Shown: positions 43,306-51,976 of the stretch, piece after piece
How the letters are laid out: the number at the start of each line of letters is the position of its first letter
How positions within the stretch are numbered: the stretch's first letter is position 1
NCBI RefSeq assembly: GCF_028745505.1
Contig: NZ_JAQZZL010000002.1
Location: forward strand, 2,170,001-2,234,000
Direction of reading: 5' to 3'
DNA length: 64,000 nt
Source: Lentisphaera marina
GTDB lineage: Bacteria; Verrucomicrobiota; Lentisphaeria; Lentisphaerales; Lentisphaeraceae
Position numbers and translations under genes: made by a program
Notes under the pieces: model-generated
The model's database searches: none
Told to the model about the DNA's origin: nothing
Seen by the model: only the letters and a program-made list of their open reading frames with translations

Positions 43306-44572
43306 TACACTAGATAGAAGAAGATTTCTCCAAGGCGTAGGGGCCTTGTTAACCTTACCGCTTTTTGAAGCTTCAGCATCGACAAAAAAGTCATCAAAAC
43401 CACCGGTGCGCATGATTAATCTCGGTTGGGCATATGGGGTTACCGGCTACGGTAAATGGTTCCCTGAAACTGGCTCTGGTTTTGATTACAAAGTACCAGA
43501 ATGTCTCGCGTCCATGGAAAAACATAAAAAAGATTTCACCTACTTCTCCAACATTTCTAACCCATTCACTGCCGGTGGACACAACACTTGTACAAATCTA
43601 TATACATGTGCAAACTTAAAAAGAACAACAGGGCGATCATTTCACAATAGTATCTCATCTGACCAACTAGCTGCGAAGCACCTTGGTGCACACACCCGCT
43701 TTGATTCCATTGTTCTCGGGAAAAGAGGTAATGGAACGGGACCGTGTCTTTCTCTGTCATGGGATGAAAGTGCAAGGCCAATACAAGGTATGAATGATCC
43801 GATTCAATTATATAATCAGATGTTTGGAGACGGTTCTGTTTCACTGGCAGAGCGAAAAGCACTACTACGAAAAAAACGAAGTGTTCTCGACACTGTTTAT
43901 CTAGATAGTAAAAACCTTAAGAAAAAAATAAGTCGGGCTGATAGTGTCAAGCTCGACGAATATTTCGAAATGGTACGCAAAATAGAGAAAGATTTTGAAA
44001 AGGAAGGAGAATGGTTGAAAATTGCCAAGCCTAAGACTGATCTAAAAAAACCAGTAAATGGACTTAGAGGTGAAAAGAACATTAAGGCAATGTACGATCT
44101 GATAATGGCCGGAATGATCGCCGACTCATCGAGGTGTTTCTCATACCTAATTCCAATCTACTCGATGCTTAAAGAAATGGGAGTTGAAGGTTCATCACAT
44201 GCAATCAGTCATCACTCAAAGAATAATATGGCACTAGTAGCGGATTCAATTAAAATTAATACAAAAAATGCTGAACTTTTGTCTAGGTTTATTGATAATT
44301 TAAAGTCCTACAAGGAATCGGATGGATCAAGCCTTTTTGATAACTGTTTAGTTACTTATTCTTCTGGTACCAGAATAGCTCACAGTGTGAGGGATTTACC
44401 TTGTATCTTAACAGGTAATGGTGGCGGAAAAATCAAGCATCAGGGTTATATAGAACTAGAGAATGGTAGTAATCGAATGAGTAATCTATTCTTAACAACT
44501 CTACAAACTGTCGGTGTTAAAACTGATTCATTCAGTGACAGTAACGGCGTGATCAAAGAGCTGCTGGTATGA
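43298..44572 (+). CDS. DUF1552 protein with twin-arginine-like signal
   Basis: A 424-residue DUF1552 protein. The N-terminus NTLDRRRFLQGVGALLTLPLFE is a Tat-type signal (RRRFLQG). Typical family segments are KPPVRMINLGWAYGVTGYGKWFP, GGHNTCTNLYTCA and DSIVLGKRGNGTGPCLSLSWDE, where the usual SDQL motif is present as SSDQLAA. It is exported, probably folded, and is always found with DUF1592-type cytochrome proteins; the reaction is unknown. Its ATG overlaps the GH3 fragment by 8 bases and its TGA overlaps the start of the next gene as ATGA. Confidence 0.92.
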   Translation: MGNTLDRRRFLQGVGALLTLPLFEASASTKKSSKPPVRMINLGWAYGVTGYGKWFPETGSGFDYKVPECLASMEKHKKDFTYFSNISNPFTAGGHNTCTNLYTCANLKRTTGRSFHNSISSDQLAAKHLGAHTRFDSIVLGKRGNGTGPCLSLSWDESARPIQGMNDPIQLYNQMFGDGSVSLAERKALLRKKRSVLDTVYLDSKNLKKKISRADSVKLDEYFEMVRKIEKDFEKEGEWLKIAKPKTDLKKPVNGLRGEKNIKAMYDLIMAGMIADSSRCFSYLIPIYSMLKEMGVEGSSHAISHHSKNNMALVADSIKINTKNAELLSRFIDNLKSYKESDGSSLFDNCLVTYSSGTRIAHSVRDLPCILTGNGGGKIKHQGYIELENGSNRMSNLFLTTLQTVGVKTDSFSDSNGVIKELLV

Positions 44573-47166
44573 TAAAACTTTTTAGCTTCTTTTTAGCTGT
44601 ATTGATTCCTGGAGCCTCAAGTGCAGCAGAAATGTCGTATTCTAATACATTAAAGCCTTTTATTAATTCTTATTGTATTAAATGTCATGGGCCTTCGAAA
44701 CAAAAGTCAAACTTAAGGCTGGATAACCTTCCCTTTACTCTTAAGGATTTAGCAAATGTTGAACACTGGCAAAGTGTGCTCGATGAACTAAATCAGGGTA
44801 ATATGCCTCCGGAAAATGCAAAACATCCGGAGGTTGAGGAGTTTTCTAGTGTTCTTGATTTTTTGATGGATAGCCTTGAAAAATCCAAGAAAAATCTATA
44901 TGGCAAAGGGAAGGGAACGCTGATGCGCCGCCTTAACAAACGTGATTACTCTAACTCTGTATTTGATTTGACAGGTGTTAAAATCCCTGAAGATTCTTTA
45001 CCACAAGATCCCAAAGGTGCGAGTTTTGACACTGATGGCTCAAATTTGTTTATGTCGAGTTACCACTTTTTTCAATATCAGTCATTAGCAAAAAAAGCTA
45101 TCAGGGATGCTATTCACTTTGAGAATAAGCCTGAAGTCAGACGGATCGTATTCCACCCCGTCGCTGGACTTGATCTAGTCCCCTTGAAGTTTAAAAATGG
45201 TGTCGCTAGTAAAACACTCCAAAATTACCAGAGTAACTTAAAAGCATTTTTAAAAAAATTTAAGATTCCTCTTAAGGATGCTTTGTCGATGAAGGACCAA
45301 AACGTTAAGAAGAAATCTGGTGCCAACACCAATGCTAAAACTGTCAAAGTACCGGAAGGTTTAATGCATAATGTTATTATATCACCGTGGGCATTTTTTA
45401 CTAAGAATAACCAGAAAGGTAATGGTATGATTGAAAGACTGCTTATGTCTCTTAATGGCATGGTGGACAAAGGAAGTCAGCTATCTACTGGGATGTATAA
45501 ATTCTCTATCACTTGCGGATATGGGAATATGGATCCTTCTGATAAAGCTTTCATCGCTATTGGTACCGGAAATGCAAGGAAAAAGAGTTTCTCAACCGTA
45601 GAAAAATACGACTTTGTCGAGCTTAAGGCAAAATCTAAAAAACCCCAAGAAATTGTTTTAGAGTATTACATCGACATGAATAACGATATAGGTTTAAAAA
45701 CTGATTCTATTTTTCACATAAAATCTCTATTCCAGAACCCCATTGAGATGACTCCCGACATGAAAAAAAATAATGGTATGAACAATTTTCCATTTATCTC
45801 AATTTCGAGAATTGAAGTCTCAGGACCGCATTATAAAGAATGGCCGCCAGCTTCGCATAAAAAGATTTTTCCAACGAGACAGGGAAATCTTAGTGAAACG
45901 ACATATATCAGAAAAATCATAACATCCTTTGCCAAAAAGGCCTTTAGAAGTTCTCCTCCGACGGATAAATACCTCAAGTCATTAATGGCTATTTATCAAG
46001 AGAGAAGAGACGAAGGAGAATCAATGGAGAAAGCCATTGAGGAGCCTCTGTCTATTATTCTGGCATCCCCCAGCTTTATCTATATTGCTGAAGAGAACAC
46101 TGATAACAAACTTGGCTATATTAGTCAGGAAGAACTGGCTATCAGGCTAGCATATTTTCTTTGGAGTTCACCTCCTGACGAAAGGCTATTAAAGTTGGCC
46201 CACAGCAATAAGTTGAAGGATCCTAAAGTTTTGAGGTCTGAAGTTAGGCGCTTGATACTCGATAAACGATCTTTTAAGTTTTCAACGGGTTTTGTGGAAC
46301 AATGGTTGGATGTTAATGAAATTGCTCAGCGCGATGTCCCAGTACCACGTAAGTTCAGTCCTGTTTTTAAAAAGGCTGTCAAAGCGAGTATGGCAAAAGA
46401 ACCTATTCACTTTTTTGATACCATCATGCGGACAAATTATAGCTTGTCAAATTTTATCGATTCAGAATTTGTCGTGGTCGACAATGTTTTAGCAAATTAT
46501 TATGGACTATCAGCACCAGGAAAAGTTGGTTTTTCAAAAGTGAAACTTCCTAGAAATTCGCCTCGTGGTGGACTTGTCGGTCAAGGTGCATTTCATCTTA
46601 TTGGAAGTGATGGGGTACATACAAAGCCCATTTTAAGAGGAGCTTTTGTGCTCAGTAAAATTATTGGAAAACCGACTCCACCACCACCTGAAAATATAGA
46701 TATGATTGATGCCGATTTAGTTGGTCGGGAAACTGCGAAAGAACTCATTGCACTGCATACATCTAAAGCACAGTGTGCATCATGTCACAGAAAAATTGAC
46801 CCACTTGGTTGGGGACTTGAGAACTTCTCTGCTATTAGTAAATGGAGGACCGTTGAACCGCTAAAAAAACTGAGTGTTCGTGATATAAGAGCTAAAGGTT
46901 CACTTGCTGTTGAAACCTCGGGCCATATGCCAAATGGCAATAAGTACAAAGGTCTTGAGGAATTCAAAAAACAATTGATGGGTTACAAGCACCAGTTTTC
47001 TGAAGCTCTTATCGAAGACTTAGTAAGTTATGCCCTCGGTAAAAGAATTGGTGTTGCGGATGAAAAGCTAGTCAAAATTCTAGTCAGCCGCGCCAAAGCA
47101 AATGACTATAAACTAGCCTCAATTATCTCAGATATTGCCTGTTCAAAAACCTTCCGAATAAAATAA
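44569..47166 (+). CDS. DUF1587/1592/1588/1585 cytochrome-like protein
   Basis: An 865-residue secreted protein. Signal peptide (KLFSFFLAVLIPGASSAAE), PSCyt-type haem site CIKCHG at about residue 35, DUF1587 (GTLMRRLNKRDYSNSVFDLTGV), a middle region with a carbohydrate-binding-like fold, DUF1592 (YISQEELAIRLAYFLWSSPPDERLLKLA), DUF1588 (SPRGGLVGQGAFHLIGSDGVHTKPILRGAFV) with CASCHRKIDPLGWGLENF at about 735, and DUF1585 at the end. It is the partner of the DUF1552 protein encoded just upstream (4-base ATGA overlap). This pair is common in Planctomycetes and Lentisphaerae; no enzyme activity is proven. Confidence 0.93.
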   Translation: MIKLFSFFLAVLIPGASSAAEMSYSNTLKPFINSYCIKCHGPSKQKSNLRLDNLPFTLKDLANVEHWQSVLDELNQGNMPPENAKHPEVEEFSSVLDFLMDSLEKSKKNLYGKGKGTLMRRLNKRDYSNSVFDLTGVKIPEDSLPQDPKGASFDTDGSNLFMSSYHFFQYQSLAKKAIRDAIHFENKPEVRRIVFHPVAGLDLVPLKFKNGVASKTLQNYQSNLKAFLKKFKIPLKDALSMKDQNVKKKSGANTNAKTVKVPEGLMHNVIISPWAFFTKNNQKGNGMIERLLMSLNGMVDKGSQLSTGMYKFSITCGYGNMDPSDKAFIAIGTGNARKKSFSTVEKYDFVELKAKSKKPQEIVLEYYIDMNNDIGLKTDSIFHIKSLFQNPIEMTPDMKKNNGMNNFPFISISRIEVSGPHYKEWPPASHKKIFPTRQGNLSETTYIRKIITSFAKKAFRSSPPTDKYLKSLMAIYQERRDEGESMEKAIEEPLSIILASPSFIYIAEENTDNKLGYISQEELAIRLAYFLWSSPPDERLLKLAHSNKLKDPKVLRSEVRRLILDKRSFKFSTGFVEQWLDVNEIAQRDVPVPRKFSPVFKKAVKASMAKEPIHFFDTIMRTNYSLSNFIDSEFVVVDNVLANYYGLSAPGKVGFSKVKLPRNSPRGGLVGQGAFHLIGSDGVHTKPILRGAFVLSKIIGKPTPPPPENIDMIDADLVGRETAKELIALHTSKAQCASCHRKIDPLGWGLENFSAISKWRTVEPLKKLSVRDIRAKGSLAVETSGHMPNGNKYKGLEEFKKQLMGYKHQFSEALIEDLVSYALGKRIGVADEKLVKILVSRAKANDYKLASIISDIACSKTFRIK

Positions 47167-47778: not shown

Positions 47779-48414
47779 ATGTTATTAAGCCAAAAACATA
47801 AGATGCGAGGTTGTGAAGTGAGTGAGGATAGATTCGTAACCAGAAAAACACTACTTCAGCGCGCGAGTTGTGGCGAAGATGGCCAGGCTTGGGATGAATT
47901 TGTCGCTTACTATGAGAAGTTTATCTTTATTCTGCTCTGGCATTTGAGCGTACCGCAACAGGAATGTGATGACATATCTCAAAAAGTATTAGTAAAACTG
48001 TGGAGAAATTTGGCAAATTATGATCCCTCCAAAGCCAAATTCCGAACCTGGATAGGCACAATAATACGCAATGCAACCGCCACGCATATGGCACAACGAT
48101 CACAACAAGGCCAACGCTTCCCGTTGTTCGATACCAATGAACGGATGCTTAGTGAACAGGGCGCGGACGAGTTTGAGCAGTTCTATCAAAAGGAGTGGGA
48201 AAGCTACATAACCTCGATTGCCATGAAAAATGTTAGCGAGTGTTTCTCCGGCAAAGCAATCGAAGTATTCAAAATGTCACTTAGCGGATGTACACCCCAA
48301 GAAATCGCCGACAAATTGGATCTGCAACTGAGCTCGGTATACAGCCTCAAAAAACGTGTCAAAGCGCGCGCTATCGAAGAGGTGAAGCGGCTGCGAAATG
48401 AACTGGAGTTGTAA
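47779..48414 (+). CDS. ECF sigma factor paired with a Ser/Thr kinase
   Basis: A 211-residue sigma-70 family factor. Region 2 contains QECDDISQKVLVKLWRNLANYDPSKAKFRTWIGTIIRNATATHM. Region 4 contains VFKMSLSGCTPQEIADKLDLQLSSVYSLKKRV. GAGGAG precedes the ATG. The kinase gene begins at its stop codon (TAATG), so the two are strictly coupled, as in the kinase-associated ECF groups known from Planctomycetes. The kinase presumably controls this sigma factor instead of a classical anti-sigma factor. Its likely target is the GTGACC-N15-TCTGGTATAA element found after the kinase gene and at two other loci. Confidence 0.92.
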   Translation: MLLSQKHKMRGCEVSEDRFVTRKTLLQRASCGEDGQAWDEFVAYYEKFIFILLWHLSVPQQECDDISQKVLVKLWRNLANYDPSKAKFRTWIGTIIRNATATHMAQRSQQGQRFPLFDTNERMLSEQGADEFEQFYQKEWESYITSIAMKNVSECFSGKAIEVFKMSLSGCTPQEIADKLDLQLSSVYSLKKRVKARAIEEVKRLRNELEL

Positions 48415-50447
48415 TGAATAGCTCTAATGATAGCCTTGATATCAAAACTGAATTCACCAATGAATTCGCGCAGTTATACAACTACTCTGATGATGAACAG
48501 AGCTTTGAAGAGTTGAATCCTATCTATGCCGAAGTAGATGCGGCAGAGGTTCGCTACACCGACTTTGAAGAGATAGGCAGTGGCGGTATGAAAACAGTCT
48601 ATCGCGTGTACGACCGCAAATCAGATAGGCATGTGGCAATGGCACAGCTCCACTCGGATGCGCCCCGGGACTGCTATGAATCATTTCTACGTGAAGCAAG
48701 ATTAACTGCCGGACTACAGCATCCCAATATCATACCTGTATATGACGTGGGAATTCTCGATAACGCACCATTTTTTACTATGGAGCTTAAAGGCGGCAAA
48801 TCGCTCTCGGAAATTATCTCATCTAAAGCGGACGGATCTGTCGGAGTTACAAGCAGCGATCTACTGAAGATTTTTCTTAAGATTTGCGATGCGATTGCTT
48901 ACGCTCATTCAAAAAATGTACTCCACCTTGATCTGAAGCCCGGAAATATTCAGATTGGTGAATACGGAGAAGTGACGGTGTGTGACTGGGGGCTGGCCAA
49001 AGTTTTAGGTTCACTTGATGACGATGATGAAAGCTTGTACTTCAATCCCGACTTACTCAACAACATGACTCTTGCCGGTGAAATCAAAGGGACTCCCGGA
49101 TATATGGCTCCCGAACAGGTAACGCCCGATGGCGATAAAAACTTTCAGACGGATATCTACGCGCTGGGCGCTATGCTCTATGTGCTGTTAACCTTGGATA
49201 ATCCCTCTGACGAAAATGTTAAGACAACCCTCGAACGCACCTGTAACGGAACTCTCTTTGATTTTTCAAAAACCTGCAACACCATCCCTGAAAGCCTTAA
49301 AGCTGTCGTGATGAAGGCAACAGCGACGGCCCCCCAAGCACGTTATCAAAACCTAACGAGTCTGGGCAATGAGGTACAGCAATACTTATCCGGTTTTGCG
49401 ACAACTGCAGAAGACGCCCATTTTCTCAAACAGCTGCTATTGCTTTTAAAACGCAATCAACGGGTATCACTCATATTATGCACTGCCTTGTCCCTAATTT
49501 TGGGCCTAACGCTATACTCAGTTAATGAGATAACCAAAAGCGAAAAAGCCACACGGGAGGCGTTAATCATATCCAAAAAACAGCGTGATTTTGCCCAAGA
49601 ATCTTTAGATCAATACAGGAATGAAAAACGTTACTCGACTAGCTTAGCCAAAAGTTATGAACAGGCAGTCTTTGGTCAATCACTACTATTCAGATCTTCA
49701 GGGGTATACTCCAATCGCACCAAAGTTAATGATTATTGGCGAGTTATTAAAGAGTTGGACAAAGTACTGGAAAAGAACCCAAGCAATAAAAAGGCAATCT
49801 ATGATAAAGGAAAGTTACTGCTCATAATGCAACGTTTTGATGAGTCGGCGAAATGCTACCGCCTGAACCCTGACCATGGAGAAGTTGCGGCCACGCTTGT
49901 TGAAGAGTTTGCAGACAAATACCCAGGGGGGAAAATAAAAAAAGCCGAAGTTATTATTGATTTTATCCGTCGAATCAAAGAGCAACACATCTTCTCACGT
50001 GCTCCTTTGGCCGAAAAAATGATGGTATACGATTCTCTAGTGAGACAGAGCTTAAAGCATCATAGTCGCATTGTACGCGAAGTGATCACAATATTTAACA
50101 GAAAATGGGATAACGCCCTCTTTGAATATGACAGCAAGGAGCGCAGTCTTATTATTGGAGGTAAATACCTTCGCAACTTTCGGCCTAATTTCTATCATGG
50201 CTCAAATTCCAATATCTTACGAACACTTCAAATAGATTCGCTCACTATTAAAAGTGCAGAGTTTCAAAAACTAGAAAATGTTTCAAAGCTTCATCTAAAC
50301 ACATTGGATATTCGTGACACTGCCGTGAGCACTGTTCCCGGACAAAAATACCTCCAACTAATATCTACAATCATCTGCCGTCCGGATCAGTTCTCTGCTG
50401 ACGAACGGGCAAAATTCCCCAAACACATCAAGCTCATAGAAAAATAA
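48414..50447 (+). CDS. membrane Ser/Thr kinase lacking the beta-3 lysine (WNK-like layout)
   Basis: A 677-residue protein. A Hanks-type kinase domain (about 50-330) has the glycine loop EIGSGGMKTVY, alpha-C Glu94, HLDLKPGN (Asp173, Asn178), DWG (Asp191) and GTPGYMAPE (229-234). The VAxK position reads VAMA, so the usual lysine is Ala77. A lysine (Lys60) occurs in the glycine loop at the place used by eukaryotic WNK kinases. One membrane helix (SLILCTALSLILGLTLYSV, about 347-366) and an extracytoplasmic part of about 310 residues with TPR-like helices follow. It is coupled to the sigma gene upstream. A promoter-like element begins 20 bases after its stop. It may be active through Lys60 or a pseudokinase. 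Confidence 0.9.
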   Translation: MNSSNDSLDIKTEFTNEFAQLYNYSDDEQSFEELNPIYAEVDAAEVRYTDFEEIGSGGMKTVYRVYDRKSDRHVAMAQLHSDAPRDCYESFLREARLTAGLQHPNIIPVYDVGILDNAPFFTMELKGGKSLSEIISSKADGSVGVTSSDLLKIFLKICDAIAYAHSKNVLHLDLKPGNIQIGEYGEVTVCDWGLAKVLGSLDDDDESLYFNPDLLNNMTLAGEIKGTPGYMAPEQVTPDGDKNFQTDIYALGAMLYVLLTLDNPSDENVKTTLERTCNGTLFDFSKTCNTIPESLKAVVMKATATAPQARYQNLTSLGNEVQQYLSGFATTAEDAHFLKQLLLLLKRNQRVSLILCTALSLILGLTLYSVNEITKSEKATREALIISKKQRDFAQESLDQYRNEKRYSTSLAKSYEQAVFGQSLLFRSSGVYSNRTKVNDYWRVIKELDKVLEKNPSNKKAIYDKGKLLLIMQRFDESAKCYRLNPDHGEVAATLVEEFADKYPGGKIKKAEVIIDFIRRIKEQHIFSRAPLAEKMMVYDSLVRQSLKHHSRIVREVITIFNRKWDNALFEYDSKERSLIIGGKYLRNFRPNFYHGSNSNILRTLQIDSLTIKSAEFQKLENVSKLHLNTLDIRDTAVSTVPGQKYLQLISTIICRPDQFSADERAKFPKHIKLIEK

Positions 50448-50498: not shown

Positions 50499-50581
50499 AG
50501 ATATACAGCATATATCCAGTATGGTTCTGGATACTGCCGAAGGTGGCCTGTATATGGCAGGACAAAAGGAGATGAAAATTG

Positions 50582-51976
50582 ATGAAGAAATTATTTCTTG
50601 TACTTATTTTGAGTGTGATTTCTGGTACGGCATTGAGTGCCGACCAAATGAATAAACCCAATATAGTGATTATTTTTAATGATGATCAAGGGTATCAGGA
50701 TGTGGGGTGTTATGGATCTCCGGATATCAAAACACCACGTACCGATCAGTTAGCCGCTGAAGGGGTGAAATTGACAGACTTCTATGCTGCATCGCCCGTA
50801 TGCTCGCCATCTCGTGCATCACTACTTACAGGATGTTATCCTAATCGCATTGGTGTGGGAAGAGTATTTTTCCCGAACGAAGCACATGGATTGAATCCTA
50901 AATATGTCACGATCCCAGAGGTCTTGAAGACAGTCGGATATAAAACTAAGGCTGTTGGTAAATGGCACTTAGGGAGTGAGCCCAAGTTTCTGCCAACCAA
51001 TCAGGGCTTTGACTCCTATTACGGTATTCCATACAGCAATGACATGTACCCGGCCAAAACCATGAAATACGCAGATGATTGTCTGTATCGTGAAGGAGTT
51101 ACGCCGGAGTCTCTTGCCAAGGTCTTTGAAAATAAGAAGTCACTACAAAAGATGAAGAACAAAGTTCCGCTGATGCGCAATGAGGAGTGTATTGAGTTTC
51201 CTACTGATCAGACAACGATTACTCAGCGTCTGGCTACAGAAGGGATCAAATTTATTAATGAGAGTGTCAAAGAAGACAAACCGTTTTTTCTTTATCTTGC
51301 AAATCCAATGCCTCACACACCGCTTTTTGCATCACCAAATTTTTTAGGGAAAAGTGAACGTGGATTGTATGGAGATGTAGTGGAAGAGATTGACTATAAT
51401 GTGGGACGTATTCTTGACGAGATCAAGAAGCTGGGAATTGAAGAAAATACAATAGTAATTTACTCTTCAGATAATGGTCCATGGCTTATTAGAGGTGAGA
51501 ACGGAGGTTCTGCTCTTCCTCTCTTTGAAGGTAAAGCAACTTGGTTTGAAGGTGGCCAGCGCGTACCGGGGATCATCAAATGGCCGGCTAAAATACCAAC
51601 GGGATCTGTTTGCAAGGAGCTTGCGAGTACTATGGACTTATTACCGACATTTGCGCATATCACTGGGGCTGCATTACCGACACAGATGTCTCTGGATGGG
51701 AAGAATATTATTGATCTCCTCACTGGAAAAGAAGGAGCCAAAACACCTCATGAATTTTTCTTTTACAGTACTTATGCCGTGCGCAGTGGAGATTGGAAGT
51801 ATCATGCCCAAGAAAAGTTTAAGGTGAAGGCTACAAGGCGTGATACCACAGGACCGACTTTGTACAATTTGAAAGATGACATAGGCGAAAGCAAGAACGT
51901 CATCAATCAGTATCCAGAAATCGCAGCACGTTTGAAAAAAGTTCTTCTTGAGCAGAATTCAAAATTGAGGAACTAA
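50582..51976 (+). CDS. type I sulfatase
   Basis: A secreted sulfatase of 464 residues with a signal peptide (KKLFLVLILSVISGTALSA). The metal-binding start is IVIIFNDDQGYQDVGCYG. The formylglycine site is CSPSRASLLTG with Cys74, needing modification by a maturase not encoded in this window. VGKWHLG and IYSSDNGPWL supply further active-site residues (Lys, His, Asp, Asn). It removes sulfate esters from polysaccharides. The ATG at 50582 is chosen because GGAG lies 10 bases upstream; a TTG one codon earlier is less likely. It opens the operon behind promoter element B. Confidence 0.93.
   Translation: MKKLFLVLILSVISGTALSADQMNKPNIVIIFNDDQGYQDVGCYGSPDIKTPRTDQLAAEGVKLTDFYAASPVCSPSRASLLTGCYPNRIGVGRVFFPNEAHGLNPKYVTIPEVLKTVGYKTKAVGKWHLGSEPKFLPTNQGFDSYYGIPYSNDMYPAKTMKYADDCLYREGVTPESLAKVFENKKSLQKMKNKVPLMRNEECIEFPTDQTTITQRLATEGIKFINESVKEDKPFFLYLANPMPHTPLFASPNFLGKSERGLYGDVVEEIDYNVGRILDEIKKLGIEENTIVIYSSDNGPWLIRGENGGSALPLFEGKATWFEGGQRVPGIIKWPAKIPTGSVCKELASTMDLLPTFAHITGAALPTQMSLDGKNIIDLLTGKEGAKTPHEFFFYSTYAVRSGDWKYHAQEKFKVKATRRDTTGPTLYNLKDDIGESKNVINQYPEIAARLKKVLLEQNSKLRN

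Follow-up and report, generated by a model that had tools for sequence, protein, structure and literature searches.

The window, that is, the whole stretch of 64,000 nucleotides from Lentisphaera marina that was analysed, carries on its forward strand a gene for an ECF-type sigma factor followed by a gene for a transmembrane Ser/Thr kinase: the stop codon of the former and the start codon of the latter share one base (TAATG). The features of the pair are reported below, with their coordinates in the window, the strand and the evidence for each.

47779..48414, + strand: ECF-type sigma factor of 211 aa, presumed partner of the kinase (Sigma70_r2, 47 bits; TIGR02937 sigma70-ECF, over cut-off)
48414..50447, + strand: transmembrane Ser/Thr kinase of 677 aa (ORF reading and Pfam)
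48555..49346, + strand: kinase domain, residues 48-311 (Pfam PF00069, Pkinase, 133 bits)
48576..48602, + strand: glycine loop GSGGMKTVY, residues 55-63 (direct reading; gapless on WNK1 GRGSFKTVY)
48591..48593, + strand: Lys60 (AAA), the relocated lysine (53/53 family paralogues against 0/35 other kinases)
48642..48644, + strand: Ala77 (GCA), where an ordinary kinase has its beta-3 lysine (52 Ala and 1 Val in 53 paralogues; Lys in 33/35 others)
48693..48695, + strand: Glu94 of helix C, which presumably pairs with Lys60 (no exception among the 54 sequences of alignment A1)
48924..48947, + strand: catalytic loop HLDLKPGN, residues 171-178 (Asp173, Lys175 and Asn178 in 53/53)
48984..48992, + strand: metal-binding DWG, residues 191-193 (53/53 paralogues)
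49464..49523, + strand: predicted membrane span, about residues 351-370 (hydropathy)

The pair is flanked by a large planctomycete-type cytochrome c/DUF1592-DUF1588-DUF1587 protein (44569-47166) and by a sulfatase (50579-51976). A sulfatase is present in 71% of the 19-kb windows drawn round kinases with a relocated lysine, against 15% of those round ordinary kinases. No enrichment over background is claimed, 50% of 12 arbitrary windows being positive, with a similar mean density: sulfatases are dense genome-wide, and their neighbourhood alone therefore says little.

The catalytic residues of the kinase can be read directly in the ORF, in the motifs EIGSGGMK60TVYRVYDRKSDRHVAMA77QL, LRE94AR, HLD173LKPGN178, CD191WG and APE. 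An earlier, sequence-only reading of this DNA had placed a lysine in the glycine loop and an alanine where the beta-3 lysine is expected, with the other catalytic motifs (HLDLKPGN, DWG, APE) intact: the two residues proved exact, and the remaining motifs are all there. The extent then given to the gene, 48414-49400, is correct at its start, not at its end: the kinase domain finishes near position 49400, and the ORF runs to 50447. In an AlphaFold2 model of residues 35-335 (pLDDT 90.1, pTM 0.89) Lys60 opens strand beta-2, and Ala77 falls inside beta-3.

The same genome (5.3 Mb, 3 contigs) contains 98 kinase-domain matches, 88 of which, featuring a readable N-lobe, were tabulated. Lysine is found at position 60 in 53 of the 88, all of them intact; in none of these 53 is it found at position 77, which is occupied by alanine (n = 52) or valine (n = 1). 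The remaining 35 carry Gly, Ser or Ala at 60 and, at 77, either lysine (n = 33) or, in divergent members, arginine (n = 2). The mutual exclusion of the two lysines, 53/53 against 0/35, corresponds to a Fisher p of 3.5e-22, a value which counts related paralogues as independent and partly reflects inheritance; the genome-wide patterns and the tree, described below, are better evidence for the swap. The WNK-like relocation first noticed in the window kinase is supported, and had been understated, since it marks a family of 53 intact members within one genome, rather than a single odd gene. The relatives were also checked for a variable Lys60 accompanied by an ordinary VAxK lysine, and the opposite was found: both positions swap as a pair.

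Other traits accompany the relocated lysine. The HRD motif is turned into HLD (Leu172) in 49 of the 53 kinases, and the usual RD-type activation, which depends on the lost Arg, therefore cannot apply to them. Ala, Asp or Asn frequently stands in for the loop's first glycine. Both traits count against the reading of an active kinase given below. Isoleucine occupies position 62 in 46 of the 53 paralogues, so that the TVY of the window kinase is atypical of its own family. In all 53, hydropathy predicts a membrane span just after the kinase domain.

The distribution of the lysine arrangements was evaluated by scanning whole genomes with DNA patterns of fixed spacing, one for each arrangement. A loop lysine combined with a beta-3 alanine is found in at most 109 of the 388 genomes of the phylum, a count which includes some false matches in carA; the reversed control pattern gave no match in the same scan. 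Within the genus, 47 to 55 such sites are present per genome. The ordinary arrangement was found in 49 of 65 genomes (136 sites), while the pattern with lysine at neither place was absent from all 65, and the pattern with both lysines from all of 195 genomes. Both the Gly-to-Lys and the Lys-to-Ala replacement need two base changes, and intermediates must therefore have existed; none survives in the genomes sampled by DNA pattern. Matches reading GAMKCVISTED were set aside: they belong to carA, coding for the small subunit of carbamoyl-phosphate synthase, and account for the single-copy GAMKC sites of some families.

When one genome per species was scanned, at least 110 stretches were listed, and a kinase ORF lies at the motif in 107 of them. 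Among the matches listed with a named phylum, all kinases come from the PVC group: Lentisphaerota, Kiritimatiellota (Pontiella), Verrucomicrobiota (Roseibacillus, Rubritalea and others) and Planctomycetota (Rhodopirellula, CA13), with the qualification that some of the genomes were binned from metagenomes and may be misnamed. The only alphaproteobacterial match listed (L195, Rhodopila) lacks a kinase ORF and was discarded as due to chance. In another family of the same class, f5, most genomes carry one relocated-lysine kinase, against about 50 in the genus of the window. The f5 loci that were read (L098, L099, L100, L102) feature ORFs of 377-418 aa with the pattern GGMKxVLLVxDxDTxREVAxA, and no sigma factor gene was found beside the kinase in any of them; this single-copy form is perhaps the ancestral one. 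No description of such a bacterial family was found in the open-access literature, to which the search was limited.

The relation to the eukaryotic WNK kinases was evaluated by profile alignment and by a tree. In the alignment Lys60 falls on the column of the WNK1 loop lysine and Ala77 on that of the WNK1 cysteine, with no gap in between, in agreement with the loop position originally claimed; these WNK1 residues are numbered Lys233 and Cys250 (PMC1821047). The WNK1 sequence was checked against PDB 6cn9. PknB is the best match of the relocated-lysine family, whether single sequences, profiles or folds are compared; with PknB PASTA kinases (NF033483) the window kinase scores 190.5 bits, well below the cut-off of 450. 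In the tree, built with the trait columns removed and with a single, long-branched WNK sequence, WNK1 lies outside the family on a branch of 3.9 changes per column, and bacterial kinases with the ordinary lysine come in between. Since the family falls with PknB by sequence, fold and tree, its resemblance to WNK is convergent, as had been proposed: judged from the sequences, the family is WNK-like in the placement of its lysine, yet stands outside the WNKs. On the tree the lysine must have changed place three times, but a single clade of relocated-lysine kinases is not rejected (AU p = 0.425), and the sequences thus allow one to three moves. An ordinary-lysine kinase, GGMGMIYRAYDSHTERYVAYK (L035:1665-2576; C1:422772-423551 of the genome of the window), which all three genomes of the genus retain, groups in a quick tree with a relocated-lysine paralogue, a possible reversal of the swap.

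These data bear on three other ways of reading the family. A dead kinase tends to lose several of its motifs. In the 53 relocated-lysine kinases, Asp173, Lys175, Asn178, Asp191, Trp192, Gly193 and Glu234 (of APE) are all kept without exception; such conservation, as far as it can be judged from the residues themselves, is unlike the pattern that drift would leave in an inactive enzyme. The absence of the beta-3 lysine is, on the other hand, a common criterion for a pseudokinase (PMC12599244), and the family might consist of pseudokinases, in which Lys60 has a structural or nucleotide-sensing role only and the domain is a scaffold for the sigma factor. Among the residues whose loss without replacement defines a pseudokinase (beta-3 Lys, HRD Asp and/or DFG Asp), only the beta-3 lysine is gone, and it is always offset by a lysine at the WNK position, no case lacking both in the 65 genomes scanned for that pattern; a family of pseudokinases is, accordingly, improbable. 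It is harder still to believe that a lysine other than Lys60 has taken over, such as the one found at residue 76 in a minority of paralogues (the VAKA form): the window kinase has Met there, most of the family has Met or other residues, and Lys60 is present in 53/53. Adjacent residues of a beta-strand, moreover, point to opposite sides. Equally remote is the derivation of the family from WNK itself, as a bacterial branch either inherited vertically or acquired from a eukaryotic donor. It would explain the identical position of the lysine and the likeness of GSGGMKTVY, in the window, to GRGSFKTVY, but not the closeness to PknB by sequence, profile and fold, nor the ordinary-lysine bacterial kinases which separate the family from the distant WNK1 in the tree; the family motifs are DWG and HLD, against DLG and HRD in WNK1, and the TVY which suggests the likeness is, as seen above, exceptional among the paralogues. 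Taken on its sequence, the window kinase is very probably an active, PknB-related transmembrane Ser/Thr kinase, coupled to a sigma factor, whose ATP lysine moved from beta-3 to Lys60 independently of WNK.

The coupling to a sigma factor, also put forward in the sequence-only reading, finds support in gene neighbourhood and in co-divergence. In the genome of the window, a sigma factor gene of the ECF type is found within 3.5 kb of 44 of the 53 family kinases, and a family kinase near 44 of the 55 sigma factors of the same type; sigma neighbours are found for 2 of the 35 ordinary kinases, and for 3.8 of 53 random positions. Nine family kinases have no sigma factor gene within 3.5 kb. One of the two "ordinary" entries adjacent to a sigma factor gene (L087:1250-3449; C1, about 2277850-2280050) is a broken relocated-lysine kinase, AGQGGIKKVW...IIAYA, with a frame change and an internal stop. 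The order of the two genes varies, the pairs being operonic, convergent or divergent. For 40 pairs, kinase and sigma factor distances correlate (r = 0.63, with a permutation maximum of 0.25): this co-divergence fits a stable partnership, and also plain co-duplication.

Kinase-switched sigma factors of this type are known. In ECF43, phosphorylation supplies the missing charge of sigma region 2.2 (PMC13147305; PMC8103513); for PknS/EcfK, PMC13147305 describes an ECF sigma factor adjoining such a kinase as its direct substrate. In the partner sigma factors of the present family, region 2.2 is acidic, with Asp/Glu at position 65 in 122 of 122 aligned sequences and Asp or Glu at 62 in 86% of them. 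The phospho-threonine switch of ECF43 was therefore set aside for these proteins, which do not lack the acidic residues. A near-invariant stretch, TRxTLL, is found close to the N-terminus of the partner sigma factors (window 47839-47856, sigma residues 21-26): Thr21 is present in 116 of 116, and position 24 is Thr or Ser in all. TRxTLL is a candidate phosphorylation target, but sigma factors related to these may have it in general.

It is worth considering that the sigma factor adjoins the kinase without being its substrate, the kinase acting on an anti-sigma factor or on another protein, or the sigma factor controlling the kinase gene. Region 2.2, acidic here and not in the kinase-switched ECF43 sigma factors, is in line with this, as are the pairs which are convergent or divergent, about a dozen, and not co-transcribed; co-divergence, too, may come from co-duplication alone. 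The near one-to-one pairing of the two genes, maintained in several gene orders, and the PknS/EcfK precedent weigh in the other direction, and make a sigma factor that is not the substrate rather unlikely, though a possibility of some substance.

Phosphorylation of the sigma factor by its kinase would be part of the likeliest chain of events. A signal beyond the membrane would activate the receptor kinase, in which Lys60, probably paired with Glu94, would hold ATP in place of the missing beta-3 lysine; the kinase would modify its own partner sigma factor, and the altered sigma activity would turn on a regulon. That WNK-like regulation was also acquired convergently, the space left at beta-3 binding an inhibitory ion or responding to osmotic conditions, is a speculation to which we give little credit; if true, dozens of kinases would share such regulation and serve these bacteria as an array of sigma switches tuned by ions or osmolarity.

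A convergent, WNK-like relocation of the lysine is, in conclusion, fixed in a large kinase family of PVC bacteria, coupled to ECF-type sigma factors. The presence of both lysine states among close paralogues amounts to a natural experiment on whether the key lysine can move, how often, and to what benefit. Classification schemes that take a missing beta-3 lysine as the sign of a dead kinase misassign a large, probably active bacterial group, and the PVC bacteria gain a sizeable, unstudied sigma-kinase signalling system.

Several known systems share part of these features. In the ECF43 (PknT/EcfP, PknS/EcfK), ECF59 and ECF60 pairs, as here, a transmembrane kinase gene adjoins an ECF sigma factor gene; the ECF43 sigma factors lack the acidic residues of region 2.2, which the present ones keep, and a relocated lysine is not reported for the kinases of the three groups in the available parts of the sources. 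As for the lysine, WNKs were described in 2007 as the only functional ePK family without the beta-3 residue (PMC1821047), and moved lysines have been described as supporting catalysis in WNK1 and POMK (PMC10211241). POMK and the CAK-chloro subfamily resemble the bacterial family in the shift of the positive charge from beta-3 to the glycine loop/beta-2 (PMC10211241, PMC1821047). Both are distant from it: POMK phosphorylates O-mannose and has further motifs moved, while CAK-chloro uses Arg in place of Lys. The likeness is closest with the WNK kinases (WNK1, PDB 6cn9), where the beta-3 lysine is gone, its substitute occupies the same glycine-loop/beta-2 column and the other catalytic residues are intact. 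WNK1, however, features HRD and DLG, with the leucine of the chloride site, where the bacterial family has HLD (49/53) and DWG (53/53); the beta-3 place is taken by Cys in the former and by Ala in the latter, which is distant in the tree and combines a bacterial receptor architecture with a sigma factor neighbour. PknB and the other bacterial Hanks-type kinases are the closest relatives, sharing the succession of a kinase domain and one membrane span: PknB keeps the usual beta-3 lysine together with HRD, and the relocated-lysine family is, by its Ala77, a variant of this type.
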